DNA from: a virus
Virus record (IMG/VR): IMGVR_UViG_3300035698_004153
Coordinates: 1 to 23,089 of that record
Reading direction: 5' to 3' (one strand)
DNA: 23,089 nucleotides
Each line of letters begins with the position of its first letter. Positions within the stretch are counted from its first letter, which is position 1. A model generated the notes under the pieces. That model saw only the letters and a program-made list of their open reading frames with translations. It ran no database searches and had not been told where the DNA came from. A program made the position numbers and the translations under genes. This document shows positions 3,136 through 9,876 of the stretch, in pieces.

Positions 3136-3788
3136 TGACTGAACAAGTTTTTGTTTTTGGTGCACATTATATGGAAGACTTTGTTAAGCTTCCAGGCGTA
3201 TCAAAGAATCAAAAAGACATAGAACATCTTAAGTATGGTTGTGGTTCACACGGAGCGTTCATGAAACGTAAGGACGCCGAGACAAATGAGAACTACAAAC
3301 AACTTATCCCCTATGCTATTGTTCGTCGCGGAGATAAGATATTAGCTTATCAACGATCTAAAAAATCTGGTGAAGTTCGTCTCCATGACAAATGGTCAAT
3401 TGGCATTGGCGGACATATCAATCCAGTAGATAATCAACTTGAACTTGGAATCGTTACGCTTATAAGCATGGCGCTACAAAGAGAGCTAGAAGAAGAGCTA
3501 AACTGGGGAGAAGATTTTGATTCTACAGTTCATAACATTACTGAATACGGTGTGGTCTATCATGAATCAGATGCTGTAAGCAAAGTTCATATCGGTTATG
3601 TCTTAATGATTGATATGCCAGCAGATTCTAAGTATCCGATTCCTATCGAAGATACTATTGCCAAAAGCTTATGGCTCTCAGTAGAAGATGCACTCAAGCT
3701 CCCTGGACTAGAAACATGGAGCAAGCTTATTCTTGAAACTTTAGTGCCCGAAAAGAAAGCATTACAGAATGAAACCTCGAAAGGATAA
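3135..3788 (+). CDS. Nudix hydrolase, COG4112-like predicted phosphoesterase
   Basis: A 217-residue protein. The central region IPYAIVRRGDKILAYQRSKK, then RLHDKWSIGIGGHIN, then RELEEEL, is the pattern of COG4112-like MutT/Nudix proteins. RELEEEL supplies the REUXEE metal-binding core. The loop between GGHIN and this helix is longer than in the canonical GX5E box because of an inserted stretch (VDNQLELGIVTLIS). Nudix enzymes hydrolyse a nucleoside diphosphate linked to another group; the substrate here is unknown. GGAG lies just upstream of the ATG, which overlaps the preceding TAA. The position beside replication genes suggests nucleotide-pool or NDP-sugar housekeeping. The ORF ends just before the anomalous dnaE leader. 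Confidence 0.85.
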   Translation: MTEQVFVFGAHYMEDFVKLPGVSKNQKDIEHLKYGCGSHGAFMKRKDAETNENYKQLIPYAIVRRGDKILAYQRSKKSGEVRLHDKWSIGIGGHINPVDNQLELGIVTLISMALQRELEEELNWGEDFDSTVHNITEYGVVYHESDAVSKVHIGYVLMIDMPADSKYPIPIEDTIAKSLWLSVEDALKLPGLETWSKLILETLVPEKKALQNETSKG

Positions 3789-3790
3789 TA

Positions 3791-3829
3791 GAGTATGCAG
3801 CATGGGTAGTTTTATCCATCTGCATACTC
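3791..3829 (+). promoter_or_regulatory. Perfect 10-bp inverted repeat / RNA hairpin over the dnaE start region
   Basis: GAGTATGCAG (3791-3800) and CTGCATACTC (3820-3829) are exact reverse complements. After a bulged C (3801), ATGG (3802-3805) can also pair with CCAT (3816-3819), leaving a loop of about 10 nt. The stem contains both candidate dnaE start codons (ATG at 3795 and 3802) and ends two nucleotides before an in-frame TAG. There is no U-tract after it, so it does not look like an intrinsic terminator. It could control initiation or promote recoding. Confidence 0.65.
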
Positions 3830-3908
3830 ATTAGTTCTCTCTGATTATTCTCCACAGGATGGGGCCCAGTCTGTTACTCAGATCGCTGCTGCTGCCGCTG
3901 GTTTCGGA
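3802..3908 (+). other. Split 5' end of dnaE: PHP motif interrupted by an 8-nt out-of-frame segment with TAG
   Basis: From the ATG at 3802 the frame reads MGSFIHLHTH and then meets TAG (3832-3834). This is the N-terminal PHP motif expected of a DnaE. Exactly 8 nt after the last His codon (segment 3832-3839, TAGTTCTC), the frame used by the main dnaE ORF reads SDYSPQDGAQSVTQIA. That is the natural continuation (compare HSDYS in E. coli DnaE), and it runs without a stop into the ATG at 3909. The downstream frame has no ATG, GTG or TTG between 3810 and 3909. A second ATG at 3795 is better placed behind AAGGA (3781-3785) but encodes only four codons before a stop. Options are a frameshift or assembly error, a decayed N-terminus, or programmed bypassing. 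Confidence 0.7.
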
Positions 3909-6900
3909 ATGAATGCCGTCGCACTCACAGACCATGGTCGTGCCGGCGGATTACTTAAATTCAAAAAAGCTTGTGAAACATCAGGAATTAAACCAATTTA
4001 TGGTTTTGAGGCCTATGTTGCGCCTGAATCACATTTAACTAAAGAAAAGATTGAGAGTCATCGCAAGACTTCTTATCACTTAACACTGTTGGCCAAGAAT
4101 ACTCAAGGCCTTGAGAATATCTTTCAGTTGACAAGTATCGGTTGGCGGCAAGGCTTCTATTATAAACCTCGTATTTCCTTTGATCTTTTAAAGAAACATC
4201 AGGAAGGTTTAATAATTCTCTCAGGTTGTGGTTCCGGTAGGCTCTCTCAGTACATTATGGATGCGAAACCAGAGTTGGCAATCGCACACATAAAAGAAAT
4301 GAAAGATGTCTGGGGTGATGATTTCTATATCGAAGTCCAGAATCATGGTCTAGATTGGCAACAGCCATTACGGAAACGATTATTCGAACTCTCTGAGATA
4401 ACGACAGTCCCTCCTGTAGCGACACAGGACTCTCATTATCCTACCAGGGGAGATGCAAAACTTCATGAAGCGATCTGTAGACTTGCTGCCGGAGATCTTA
4501 CTTTTGACAGCGATGAATCTTACTTTAAGAGTCATGCGCAAATGTGTGAGAGCTTTGATCCCGAAGAGCATCATGCGATAACAAGAACTCAAGAAGTAGC
4601 AGACAAATGTAATTGCAATTGGTCTTATGGAAAAACAATCTGGCCAGTCTTCGAACTGTCTCCTGGGGTTACCCCAGAAGCAGAGTTGCGAACAAAAGCG
4701 ACTGAAGGCTTCAAACGTTTATTTGGTGACGGGGATACAGAATACCGAGAAAGACTAGAAGAAGAGCTTAGCGTTATCCAGACAATGGGATTCGCTACCT
4801 ATTTCTTGGTAGTCGCAGACTTTGTAGACTGGGGAGCCAAGAATAAAATATATGCGGGACCAGGTCGAGGTTCAGGCGCAGGTTCTCTCGTCTCTTACTG
4901 TATGGGCATTACAAAGATAGATCCTATTAAGTATGGTCTTATTTTTGCAAGGTTTCTTAACGCTGGTAGAGCTGATAGCAATCCTGACTTTGATATCGAC
5001 TGGCCGCCAGAAAGACGGAAAGATGTAATCCAGTACGTATATGATAAGTATGGAGAAGCCAAGTGCGCACAGATTGGCACCTACTCAGTTTTTAAACCTA
5101 GAGGAAGTCTGAGAAACTTTGCTAGGGTTCTTGGATATCCAATAACTGTTGGCGACGAACTTGCAGCAATGGTCTCTCCTGATGTCGCCGGCAAGACATT
5201 AACATTCGAGGAAGTTATTGCGGCAGAACCAAAGATTCTACGAAATGACTATCAAGAAGTCGTGACAATGGCTCGAGCTGCTGAAACTCTTGTCTCACAG
5301 GCAAGTGTACATGCAGCAGGTGTCGTTATCTCTGACAAAGATATAAACACACAGGTGCCTCTCTTCCTCGGTAAGCATAACGAAGTCGCTACTCAGTTCG
5401 ATATGCATGATGTTGAAGAAATAGGTCTTGTCAAATATGATTTCTTAGGGTTAAAGAATCTTGCTGTCATACAAGAAACAATTGAGCTGGTAAAAGAATA
5501 CAAAGGAATTTCTATTGATATTGACACTATCGATATACAGGATCCTCATGTATATCAAACTATTTTTCAGCAAGGAAAACTTGATGGAGTTTTTCAATTC
5601 GAGACCTCCTCTGGGTTCAAAGACTTATGTCTTCAGATCAAACCAAAATCTATTGAAGACCTTTCGATCATTACTGCTCTCTTTCGTCCTGGCCCCTTGA
5701 GCTTAAAAGATCCTGTGACTAAAAAATCAATGGTAGAACAATATGTTGATCGTCGCAGTGGAGTATCATTCGAATATTTGATTCCTGAATTAGAACCAAT
5801 ACTTAAAGATACCTATGCTGTAATTGTTTTTCAAGAGCAGATTATGAGAATCTGTACTGATATTGCCGGATATACTTTGTCTGAGGCTGATAATGTACGA
5901 AAGATATTAGGCAAAAAGTTAGTAGACAAGATGAAAACTGAGAAACAAAAGTTTGTTTCCAGTTGTATAACACGAGGAGTTACTGAGTTAGCAGCTAATC
6001 AACTCTTTGATAACATTGAGGGATTTGCCAAGTACTCTTTTAACTTAGCACATAGTATTTCTTATTCTTTTATAAGTTATCAAACAGCATGGTTGAAAAC
6101 ATATCATCGAGAAGAATTTTACTGTGCACTCTTTAATAATTCTTTGAAAACACAAGATGATCTAATCAAATATTTTCATGCTTGTCGAGAAGATGAAATC
6201 TCCATCTTGCCACCAGATGTTAATGTCTCTGGTGCCAAATTTGTTGTCAACGAAGGAACTATTGTCTTTGGTCTCGCAGGCATCAAAGGACTCGGAGAAA
6301 AAGCTTGTGCCTCATTCTTAGAAGCTCGGCCTCCGAATGGATTCACGAGCATAGAACATATGGTTGAATGTGGATTAAAGAAAGGGACAATCAAACCTTT
6401 GGCAGCAGCCGGCGCACTAGATGAAATTCTTGAGTGTCCACGAGTTCTATTCGTAGACAATATTGAATTGATTATGAAATATCATGATCAACTATTTCGA
6501 TGGACTACGAGAAACGAACGAATCAAAGTTCGGGAAGCTGAGATTAAAGAAGCTGCAAGTCAAGGAGTTCCATTACCTCGTAAGCTACCTAAGAACAAAG
6601 AGAAACCAGTGCCGCCGGATTATGAAATATTTTCAGCCGATGAGAATCAAGACAAATTAATATTAGAACGTGAAACATTAGGCTTCTATCTCACTGGTCA
6701 TCCGATGGACGATTATCCTGGACTTTCTTGCTTCTCTCAGTATACTATTGAGAGTCTGCGAGAAGGAAAAGCTTTTGATACGGAAGCTGTTCGCATCCCC
6801 GCAGTGATCTCTTCGTTAACGAAAAGGAGAACCAAGAAGGGAAAGAATATGGCAGTGTTAACAATAGAAGACAAGTCAGGAAGAATTGAAGCAACAATTT

Positions 6901-7184
6901 TTCCTAGACAATGGGAGAAATTAAGAGACACGATAGAAGAAAACACTGTTAGTCTTGTTGATGGAATTGTTAGAATGATAGATATGGATAATGACACTCC
7001 CTCAATAGTAAAGTTAATAGTAAATGATGTGCACACGATAGATAAGAATAACTATCGTATCGAACCGATTGATCTTTTTCTTCGAGATGGTTCTCGGGTT
7101 ACATTTGTTCCCGACCAGACAATGAACTTCTCTCGATATCAACAAGCGTTGGGCATGATGTCCAATATAAGAAAGATGGAGTAA
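3909..7184 (+). CDS. dnaE: DNA polymerase III alpha subunit (DnaE), main reading frame
   Basis: This 1091-residue protein is a bacterial-type C-family replicative polymerase. It starts inside the PHP domain (MNAVALTDHGRAGG). The polymerase active site has PDFDID with Asp residues at about 360 and 362, and YDFLGLK with Asp 511. Other family blocks include GPGRGSGAGSLVSY, GVFQFE, ALFRPGPLS, VFQEQIM and FNLAHSISYSFISYQTAWLK. An OB-fold segment lies near the C-terminus (VRIPAVISSL through IEATIFPRQWEKL). No Shine-Dalgarno precedes the ATG at 3909. The true N-terminus, including the first PHP histidines, is encoded upstream at 3802-3908 but is interrupted. No proofreading domain is seen; the next gene probably supplies it. 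It would extend primers made by the downstream primase-helicase. Confidence 0.93.
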   Translation: MNAVALTDHGRAGGLLKFKKACETSGIKPIYGFEAYVAPESHLTKEKIESHRKTSYHLTLLAKNTQGLENIFQLTSIGWRQGFYYKPRISFDLLKKHQEGLIILSGCGSGRLSQYIMDAKPELAIAHIKEMKDVWGDDFYIEVQNHGLDWQQPLRKRLFELSEITTVPPVATQDSHYPTRGDAKLHEAICRLAAGDLTFDSDESYFKSHAQMCESFDPEEHHAITRTQEVADKCNCNWSYGKTIWPVFELSPGVTPEAELRTKATEGFKRLFGDGDTEYRERLEEELSVIQTMGFATYFLVVADFVDWGAKNKIYAGPGRGSGAGSLVSYCMGITKIDPIKYGLIFARFLNAGRADSNPDFDIDWPPERRKDVIQYVYDKYGEAKCAQIGTYSVFKPRGSLRNFARVLGYPITVGDELAAMVSPDVAGKTLTFEEVIAAEPKILRNDYQEVVTMARAAETLVSQASVHAAGVVISDKDINTQVPLFLGKHNEVATQFDMHDVEEIGLVKYDFLGLKNLAVIQETIELVKEYKGISIDIDTIDIQDPHVYQTIFQQGKLDGVFQFETSSGFKDLCLQIKPKSIEDLSIITALFRPGPLSLKDPVTKKSMVEQYVDRRSGVSFEYLIPELEPILKDTYAVIVFQEQIMRICTDIAGYTLSEADNVRKILGKKLVDKMKTEKQKFVSSCITRGVTELAANQLFDNIEGFAKYSFNLAHSISYSFISYQTAWLKTYHREEFYCALFNNSLKTQDDLIKYFHACREDEISILPPDVNVSGAKFVVNEGTIVFGLAGIKGLGEKACASFLEARPPNGFTSIEHMVECGLKKGTIKPLAAAGALDEILECPRVLFVDNIELIMKYHDQLFRWTTRNERIKVREAEIKEAASQGVPLPRKLPKNKEKPVPPDYEIFSADENQDKLILERETLGFYLTGHPMDDYPGLSCFSQYTIESLREGKAFDTEAVRIPAVISSLTKRRTKKGKNMAVLTIEDKSGRIEATIFPRQWEKLRDTIEENTVSLVDGIVRMIDMDNDTPSIVKLIVNDVHTIDKNNYRIEPIDLFLRDGSRVTFVPDQTMNFSRYQQALGMMSNIRKME

Positions 7185-8656: not shown

Positions 8657-8936
8657 AACCCCATTGATCAAGCCTTTTGTTGCTCGCCGGTCTAGTGATA
8701 GGCCGGCGGCAACTGCTGGCAAACAACTGTTGGCCTCTAGAGAAGCTACTATCGTTTTGTATAAACGAAAGAAATGGGACTTGATCAAATTAGTTCATCA
8801 TCTTGCCCAAAGAGTCAAGGACCTAGAAGGCAATCAATGCCAACCTAATGCCAAGTGCCTTTTTAAAGGCCGAGAGTATATGGATCAAAAATATACAGAG
8901 GATGCCCATGAGCCATCAAAGCTATCAGATAGATGA
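8643..8936 (+). CDS. Hypothetical small basic protein
   Basis: A 97-residue protein starting MMKNKTPLIK; the second Met at 8646 is an alternative. The start overlaps the end of the previous gene by 14 nt and has only weak ribosome-binding sequence, which suggests coupled translation. It is basic in its first two thirds. A helix around residues 45-65 (KKWDLIKLVHHLAQRVKDLE) could form a short coiled coil, and two Cys residues follow. The end overlaps the next gene by 29 nt. No family recognised. The coding call rests on the uninterrupted frame filling the gap between two well-supported genes. Confidence 0.6.
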   Translation: MMKNKTPLIKPFVARRSSDRPAATAGKQLLASREATIVLYKRKKWDLIKLVHHLAQRVKDLEGNQCQPNAKCLFKGREYMDQKYTEDAHEPSKLSDR

Positions 8937-9876
8937 CAAGCCTGTCTTTTCCCTCATTGCAGAAGAAGACAATTACGAAGCAACACATAAGCGATATACT
9001 ATTCGTCGCGCAGGACTTTATCCGTCTGAAGCTTCTGTCCTATACAAAGAAGGAGACCAGGTAGTCGTTCTTGGAAAATGCATGCGTGCTGCATGGTACC
9101 GGGCTTCTGGTGTGCCCAAAACAAGTGGCCCCAACGTAGGTCTTTCTATGAAGGGACATCTTGGGAAATGGGACGAGGTTGGAACAGTTAACAAATGGAA
9201 AGAGATGGGGATTTGGCTTGATAACAATATCAAGTTCTACAATAAAGACTTGGCATTATCTGGAGAGCTTGATGCGATCCTAAGAAATCCTGTCACCGGA
9301 GGTCTCTTTGGTCTGGAATGCAAGACATTCTATGGATACTATGCAGGAAGACTTATCTGTGGAGTGAAGAGAGAAAGAGGTTCAGGTAAGTTCCTCGCCG
9401 GAAGACCAAGGCCTGAGCATTTCCTTCAGACACTGCTCTATTTCTGGGAATACAGGAATCAACTTGATGAATTTCGTCTCTATTATTTAGAACGAGGCGA
9501 CGGACATCGAATAGAATTCAGGGTAGGCTTCGAAGAACTACCAGACGGCCGTCATCAATGTTATTGGGAGCAAATCCCAGGTAAATATTGGAATGCATTT
9601 GCTGCCGGCAAAGTACTACAACCCTATACTATCGAAGATATTCATGATCGATATACCCAGTTACTCACATCCTTGAGAGCCAAAAAGTTACCGCCTAAAG
9701 ATTTCGAGGCCGAGTGGGATGCTAAGAAAATAGAATTTGAATACGCTCAAGGTAACGTATCCAAAACTAATTATGATAAATGGGAAAAGAAACCAGAGAC
9801 AAATAAGCTAGGCGCTTGGAACTGCTCCTACTGCCAATGGCAAGGCCAATGCACTCAGGATTCTTTGACCTATTGA
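8908..9876 (+). CDS. Cas4/RecB-like PD-(D/E)XK nuclease with Fe-S cluster signature
   Basis: A 322-residue nuclease-fold protein. One Cys near the N-terminus (GKCMRAAWYR, C58) and three near the C-terminus (NCSYCQWQGQC, C306, C309, C315) give the four-Cys arrangement that binds an Fe-S cluster in Cas4 and AddB-type nucleases. Active-site residues are visible: GELDAI (D122) and GLECKTF (E137, K139), then QTLLYF, the helix that often follows in RecB-like domains. The ATG at 8908 has GAGG 6 nt upstream; an in-frame ATG at 8902 is too close to it. Such enzymes resect or trim DNA ends with 5'-3' or 3'-5' polarity. With recA and a primase-helicase nearby, a role in recombination or replication end processing is likely. 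There is no CRISPR array or Cas1/Cas2 here. Confidence 0.85.
   Translation: MSHQSYQIDDKPVFSLIAEEDNYEATHKRYTIRRAGLYPSEASVLYKEGDQVVVLGKCMRAAWYRASGVPKTSGPNVGLSMKGHLGKWDEVGTVNKWKEMGIWLDNNIKFYNKDLALSGELDAILRNPVTGGLFGLECKTFYGYYAGRLICGVKRERGSGKFLAGRPRPEHFLQTLLYFWEYRNQLDEFRLYYLERGDGHRIEFRVGFEELPDGRHQCYWEQIPGKYWNAFAAGKVLQPYTIEDIHDRYTQLLTSLRAKKLPPKDFEAEWDAKKIEFEYAQGNVSKTNYDKWEKKPETNKLGAWNCSYCQWQGQCTQDSLTY

Follow-up and report, generated by a model that had tools for sequence, protein, structure and literature searches.

Outside mitochondria, natural translational bypassing has almost a single established example, which is gene 60 of phage T4. In this gene, a UAG follows the take-off codon, and stem-loops folding behind the ribosome favour forward sliding (PMC11194080). 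At a slip-and-stop site, a neighbouring 12-bp hairpin that refolds during translation stimulates +1 slippage on 70S ribosomes, imitating an internal Shine-Dalgarno duplex (PMC6321510). A review of 2016 knew of no natural in-frame stop-hop (PMC5009743), and we found no report in the literature of bypassing in phage DnaE. This study addresses the start of a phage replicative DNA polymerase gene, where a UAG and a short gap are probably crossed by a programmed forward bypass, driven by a hairpin that refolds behind the ribosome.

The window, meaning the whole stretch of DNA analysed here, is a virus record of 23,089 bases, and its dnaE, which ends at 7184, was confirmed as DnaE by Pfam. ATG3802 is followed by GGT AGT TTT ATC CAT CTG CAT ACT CAT, reading MGSFIHLHTH, and this frame ends at the TAG of 3832-3834. 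The 8 nt that begin with this TAG (3832-3839) separate it from SDYS (TCT GAT TAT TCT), which begins at 3840, in the same frame as 3909, and continues dnaE as SDYSPQDG(AQ). An earlier note on this DNA had given MGSFIHLHTH-TAG, an 8-nt jump and SDYSPQDGAQ, and all of its coordinates were correct on re-reading the window. It had also claimed that the dnaE frame is without a usable start before 3909, which holds, as the first ATG, GTG or TTG after the preceding in-frame stop (TAG3807) is ATG3909. The features of the locus, all on the + strand, are given below.

3769..3831, + strand: N-terminal open frame of dnaE up to the UAG, the HLHTH frame being open upstream as far as ATG3769; read as MKPRKDNRVCSMGSFIHLHTH (ATG3769) or MGSFIHLHTH (ATG3802), by frame inspection; FIHLHTH varies at third codon positions only (window, L008, L011).
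3780..3785, + strand: AAAGGA, Shine-Dalgarno-like, just 5' of the hairpin, by sequence inspection; also in L008, L011 and L161.
3791..3800, + strand: 5' arm of the outer hairpin stem (GAGTATGCAG), from the stem search and compensatory changes.
3802..3819, + strand: inner stem-loop of 7 bp with loop GUUU, continuing the hairpin past a one-base bulge, from the MFE structure (z = -2.9 for the 101-nt stretch).
3820..3829, + strand: 3' arm of the outer stem (CTGCATACTC), from the stem search; it is the L-H-T codons plus the first base of the last His codon of PHP motif I.
3829..3831, + strand: proposed take-off codon CAT (His); CAT or CAC stands right before the UAG in all seven carriers, as the scans required.
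3832..3839, + strand: non-coding gap TAGTTCTC, starting with the UAG stop; absent from more than 150 intact relatives.
3837..3839, + strand: proposed landing codon CTC, one mismatch from CAC, suggested by the carrier alignment.
3840..7184, + strand: rest of dnaE (SDYSPQDG..., with PHP, Pol III alpha, finger, HHH and OB), by Pfam; 50-60% identity to close relatives over about 1100 residues.

Elsewhere in the window, at 8848-9876, there is a 342-aa ORF without a Pfam or PHROGs match, which is about 50% identical to a translated stretch of the clade record G003.

The junction was inspected in eight close phage DnaE, which share about 50-60% identity over 1100 residues. In six of them (L002-L006 and L012) HLHTH-SDYS is continuous, whereas the other two are interrupted at exactly the codon boundary seen in the window, each by a 9-nt gap: HLHTH-TAGGTTTGC-SDFS in L008 and HLHTH-TAGGTTAGC-SDYS in L011. 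Viral contigs were then scanned for the pattern His-TAG leading into the PHP motif, with TAG sought after a His codon only, and this added distant carriers. With 8-nt gaps these are L161 (HLHLH-TAGTTGAC-SDYS), L406 (HLHLH-TAGGTCAA-TEYS) and L424 (HLHLH-TAGCTGAC-TEYS). A seventh and doubtful carrier, L165, reads HLH-TAGTCTC-VHSHYS, with a 7-nt gap and no strong hairpin. The remaining CACTAG/CATTAA matches leading into the PHP motif, among the matches listed, were rejected as ordinary gene starts, with ATG or GTG right at the stop of the preceding gene. The UAG directly follows the His codon of PHP motif I (CAT or CAC) in 7 of 7 carriers, a count to be read with the scans' demand for TAG, and the starts of more than 150 other phage DnaE, some of them near-copies of each other, are continuous. 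Upstream, the open frame includes an ATG that precedes the UAG by 20-22 codons in the window, L008, L011 and L161, and by 25 codons in L406 and L424; measured from plausible starts it spans 8-25 codons, and at most 42, in L008. In GenBank phages, neither the window nor L424 has a close DNA match, and tblastn reached 39% at best.

Several of these genes carry other irregularities. In L008 (4932-9381), an insert with a LAGLIDADG ORF (6174-6971) disrupts dnaE at about residue 383, and recA contains an intein with LAGLIDADG_2. The upstream in-frame ATG of L008 (4797-4860) opens MSFVHHNSKTQFQTG, a stretch that looks like a degenerate repeat of the DnaE N-terminus (MSFVHLHTHSDFS). The dnaE of L406 and L424 consists of two ORFs (L426:4598-8614 and L427:5861-11614), split after about residue 433, and between the two ORFs of L424 lies a 550-aa ORF on the opposite strand, without a Pfam match.

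Because the arrangement of interruption and hairpin recurs in other phages, it lies far beyond chance. The earlier note had listed an error, a lesion and bypassing without choosing among them; of these, the relatives support bypass-like recoding. The TAG-led interruption and its hairpin are found both in phages whose DnaE is 50-60% identical and in others at a far greater distance, with coding sequence on both sides, and an assembly error or private lesion is therefore not supported. L165 alone would fit an error or a recent gene-killing lesion, having about 80 intact close relatives and no strong hairpin, but the other six contigs recur with a compensated hairpin and intact open frames downstream. 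For these six hairpin carriers as a group the explanation is refuted, by recurrence and by the compensated hairpin, and overall it is scarcely credible. The route by TC slippage, suggested earlier for part of the gap, is irrelevant to the other carriers.

The gaps of 7, 8 and 9 nt cover all three frames and each restores the exact PHP motif, which excludes simple readthrough as well as any single common frameshift. Continuation in the same frame, as stop codon readthrough would have it, exists only in L008 and L011 (9 nt), and not in the other five carriers. TAG is an ordinary stop in the window (G000), G001 and G002, where it ends 4 of 22, 13 of 64 and 13 of 81 predicted ORFs, respectively. 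No suppressor tRNA with an anticodon for UAG was found in the scanned stretches of this clade (G000, G001, G002), genome-level checks, which cover the window's clade only, gave no sign of stop codon reassignment, and comparing the clade revealed no other conspicuous interrupted gene. When other genes were scanned for the element among the available loci, the matches were mostly out-of-frame stops inside genes and were uninformative. A phage protein with an RF-1 domain was considered as an explanation and rejected, as it is also present in intact relatives and absent from the records of L161, L406, L424 and L165. Such a protein (GGQ) is phage-encoded in 6 of 9 clade records, carriers and intact alike (L099:17088-17501; also G001, G003, G004, G006 and G008), and in the L011 genome it lies about 2 kb 3' of dnaE.

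The hairpin went unremarked in the earlier note. In the window, it is a perfect 10-bp stem (3791-3800/3820-3829) with a 7-bp inner stem, and ends 2 nt before the TAG. Six of the seven carriers have such a stem, of 10-14 bp and perfect or near-perfect, ending 0 nt (L161) or 2 nt (the others) before the UAG, and the codons of HLH(T/L) themselves form its 3' arm. As background, a stem of at least 10 bp occurs at this spot in 0.48% of 20,000 TAG-ended frames of other loci, and the longest among 103 distinct intact DnaE N-termini is 8 bp. Across the five distinct stems, 5 of 10 stem pairs are altered on both sides, and the covariation score was reached by 0 of 500 shuffles. All 50 of 50 pair cells hold standard pairs, a figure that is partly by construction because the stems were chosen as helices, and the informative part is the two-sided changes at codon-constrained positions, not the pairing percentage. 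For L161, a weak stem is predicted to begin at the UAG, though not consistently for the other carriers, and L165, without a strong hairpin, may be an unrelated lesion.

Of the 21 codons of the element, L406 and L424 share 20; the sole change lies in the loop and none is synonymous, whereas the gene body has 200 identical, 139 synonymous and 27 non-synonymous codons (366 in all; element versus body p=6e-5). The divergence downstream of the element at first resembled a recombination breakpoint, as of a mobile cassette shared by these two phages. This was rejected, since the divergence is confined to roughly the first 25 residues and overall identity between the phages is about 80%; the 66-nt identity is therefore read as constraint. 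These 25 or so residues after the UAG differ strongly between the two (L426:4499-4600 against L427:5846-5945), and the first 400 DnaE residues are 87% identical overall.

A hairpin at this position could also guide cleavage and ligation, whereby the gap would be cut from the RNA and not skipped by ribosomes. In six of seven carriers the last base of the gap is C, and a one-base-shifted excision (CA[...]C) would also rejoin the His codon. However, L406 has another base at this place, and UAG next to the take-off codon is a characteristic mark of ribosomal bypassing. Additionally, Rfam gave no covariance model match and no known intron signature, whether of a group I intron or of another known RNA element, and no bulge-helix-bulge was seen. 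Removal from the RNA is very improbable in our judgement.

The codon positions on either side of the gap speak of translation. In the window, L008 and L011, variable sites at first, second and third positions number 0/0/4 in FIHLHTH (p=0.006) and 9/11/22 from SDYS to Met3909 (p=1e-5). Judged by these patterns, both flanks evolve as coding sequence, and skipping of the UAG is strongly implied. A stop at the UAG followed by a restart is very unlikely, marginally less so than removal from the RNA. The hairpin would then be looped out, and the upstream Shine-Dalgarno would serve a non-standard start (GUU or near) just past the stop, with the DnaE lacking the HxH motif or having it supplied by the short peptide. 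AAAGGA lies 2-7 nt before the hairpin in four carriers, a layout that recalls looped-out initiation sites. However, there is no common start codon in the right frame, and no ATG, GTG or TTG start lies between the UAG and Met3909. ATG3909 and its equivalents lie 3' of the conserved SDYSPQDGAQ, which is itself coding-constrained, as is FIHLHTH.

For a programmed forward bypass, the N-terminal peptide would be translated through the hairpin, and the ribosome would arrive at the His codon CAU, so that the A site holds UAG. The hairpin, with the newly decoded sequence as its 3' arm, would refold behind the ribosome and pull the mRNA forward. The peptidyl-tRNA-His would leave CAU, slide past the UAG and a few nt, and land on a near-cognate codon, and decoding would start again from the conserved Ser/Thr within PHP motif I, so that the product reads HxH-[S/T]-[D/E]-Y-S with no added residue. 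After a slide of 8-9 nt, the stem base would lie 5-8 nt 5' of the landing codon, a distance resembling Shine-Dalgarno spacing. The landing codons of the 8- and 7-nt carriers (CTC, GAC, CAA, GAC and CTC) are each one mismatch from a His codon, for which the chance is about 25% each (16 of 64 codons within one mismatch of His), and those of L008 and L011 (TGC and AGC) are two mismatches away. None of the seven carriers has a matched landing codon (CAT/CAC against CTC, GAC, CAA, GAC, TGC, AGC and CTC); the earlier note had argued against classic bypassing from the missing cognate His codon, and the classic form is indeed ruled out. No T4-like nascent-peptide signal is evident in the short upstream frames of 10-25 codons. 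As the carriers are metagenomic contigs without known hosts, some tRNA or host factor might be involved.

The chief rival to the exact bypass is a shorter forward slip that would add two residues, or perhaps only one. With the same hairpin, a forward frameshift of +2 in the 8-nt carriers, +3 in the 9-nt carriers and +1 in L165 would skip the stop and lengthen DnaE by two residues, for example HTH-VL-SDYS where the bypass junction would be HLHTHSDYSPQDGAQ. Refolding hairpins 5' of a slip site are known stimulators of short forward slips (PMC6321510), and the first in-frame codon after such a slip in the 8- and 9-nt carriers is GNU (GUU, GUU, GGU, GCU, GUU, GUU). However, none of the more than 150 intact phage DnaE is lengthened at this point, the identity of the second added residue would be unconstrained (L, D, Q, D, C, S), and the +2/+3 codons (UUA, CUA, UAG) would be expected to pair worse with tRNA-His than the +8 codons. 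We consider the short slip unlikely, and a hairpin-driven forward bypass with exact motif restoration is favoured by the hairpin effect described in PMC6321510, the parallels with T4 gene 60, the stem spacing and the near-His landing codons. We infer the ribosome, and not RNA processing, as the joiner, refolding as the driver, the exact landing site and any regulatory use.

In the full-length DnaE tree, the window is sister to the intact L002, and L011 to the intact L006. Grouping the window, L008 and L011 together is rejected (AU p=3.5e-39), as is L008 with L011 alone (p=0.0017), and five to six gains or losses are required once the distant carriers are included. Since carriers are scattered among intact relatives, the element was gained repeatedly, transferred, or often lost. 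A bolder view, which we hold tentatively and at somewhat under even chances, is that of a recurrent mini-bypass cassette, which may be mobile and which phage DnaE genes acquired on several occasions, precisely at PHP motif I; its parts would be a Shine-Dalgarno-like site, a start codon, a hairpin of 10-14 bp, a His codon, the UAG and 5-6 nt. In such a cassette, hairpin refolding alone would set the 8-9 nt jump without a matched landing codon, and the element may throttle replicase synthesis.

If the bypass is true, it would represent a new kind of natural short bypass and a second natural group, marked by a gap of few nucleotides, an uncomplicated local hairpin and a number of sequence variants. 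It would allow direct tests of how the ribosome lets go, slides and lands, and of hairpin refolding as the push. Such DNA polymerases would come out of gene callers systematically truncated, and phage replication may be under the control of recoding.

Among the known systems, synthetic stop-hops in E. coli, where matched codons flank a stop and 9 nt are decoded as one amino acid, share the short forward hop of peptidyl-tRNA over a stop; the DnaE carriers differ in being natural, hairpin-associated and without matched codons. Upstream refolding hairpin stimulators (PMC3639245, PMC6321510) likewise have a hairpin 5' of the slip site, a stop in the A site and a forward bias, but they were described for +1/-1 slip sites, whereas the DnaE carriers skip 7-9 nt. 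The byp elements of Magnusiomyces capitatus mitochondria are short inserts skipped in translation, with landing codons that are not always matched, yet they are mitochondrial, occur in many genes, are apparently context-independent and are linked to an unused codon (PMC5009743). The bypass proposed for the terminase of Streptomyces phage Hau3 also concerns a phage gene with a short coding gap, but it hinges on a UUA codon and not on UAG with an adjacent hairpin (PMC5009743). The likeness to T4 gene 60 is closer, and comprises a UAG directly after the take-off codon, a stem-loop 5' of it able to refold behind the ribosome, a phage replication gene, and a conserved protein rejoined independently of frame. 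However, the gap of T4 gene 60 is 50 nt with a matched landing codon, against 7-9 nt and unmatched codons in the DnaE carriers, where the gene is dnaE and the 3' arm of the hairpin runs into the take-off codon. The DnaE carriers also leave no room for a nascent-peptide signal of the KKYK type, which in gene 60 lies about 25-30 residues before the P site. Lacking both the matched landing codon and the room for this signal, they are not members of the T4 gene 60 type, and the DnaE element would work like translational bypassing outside that type.
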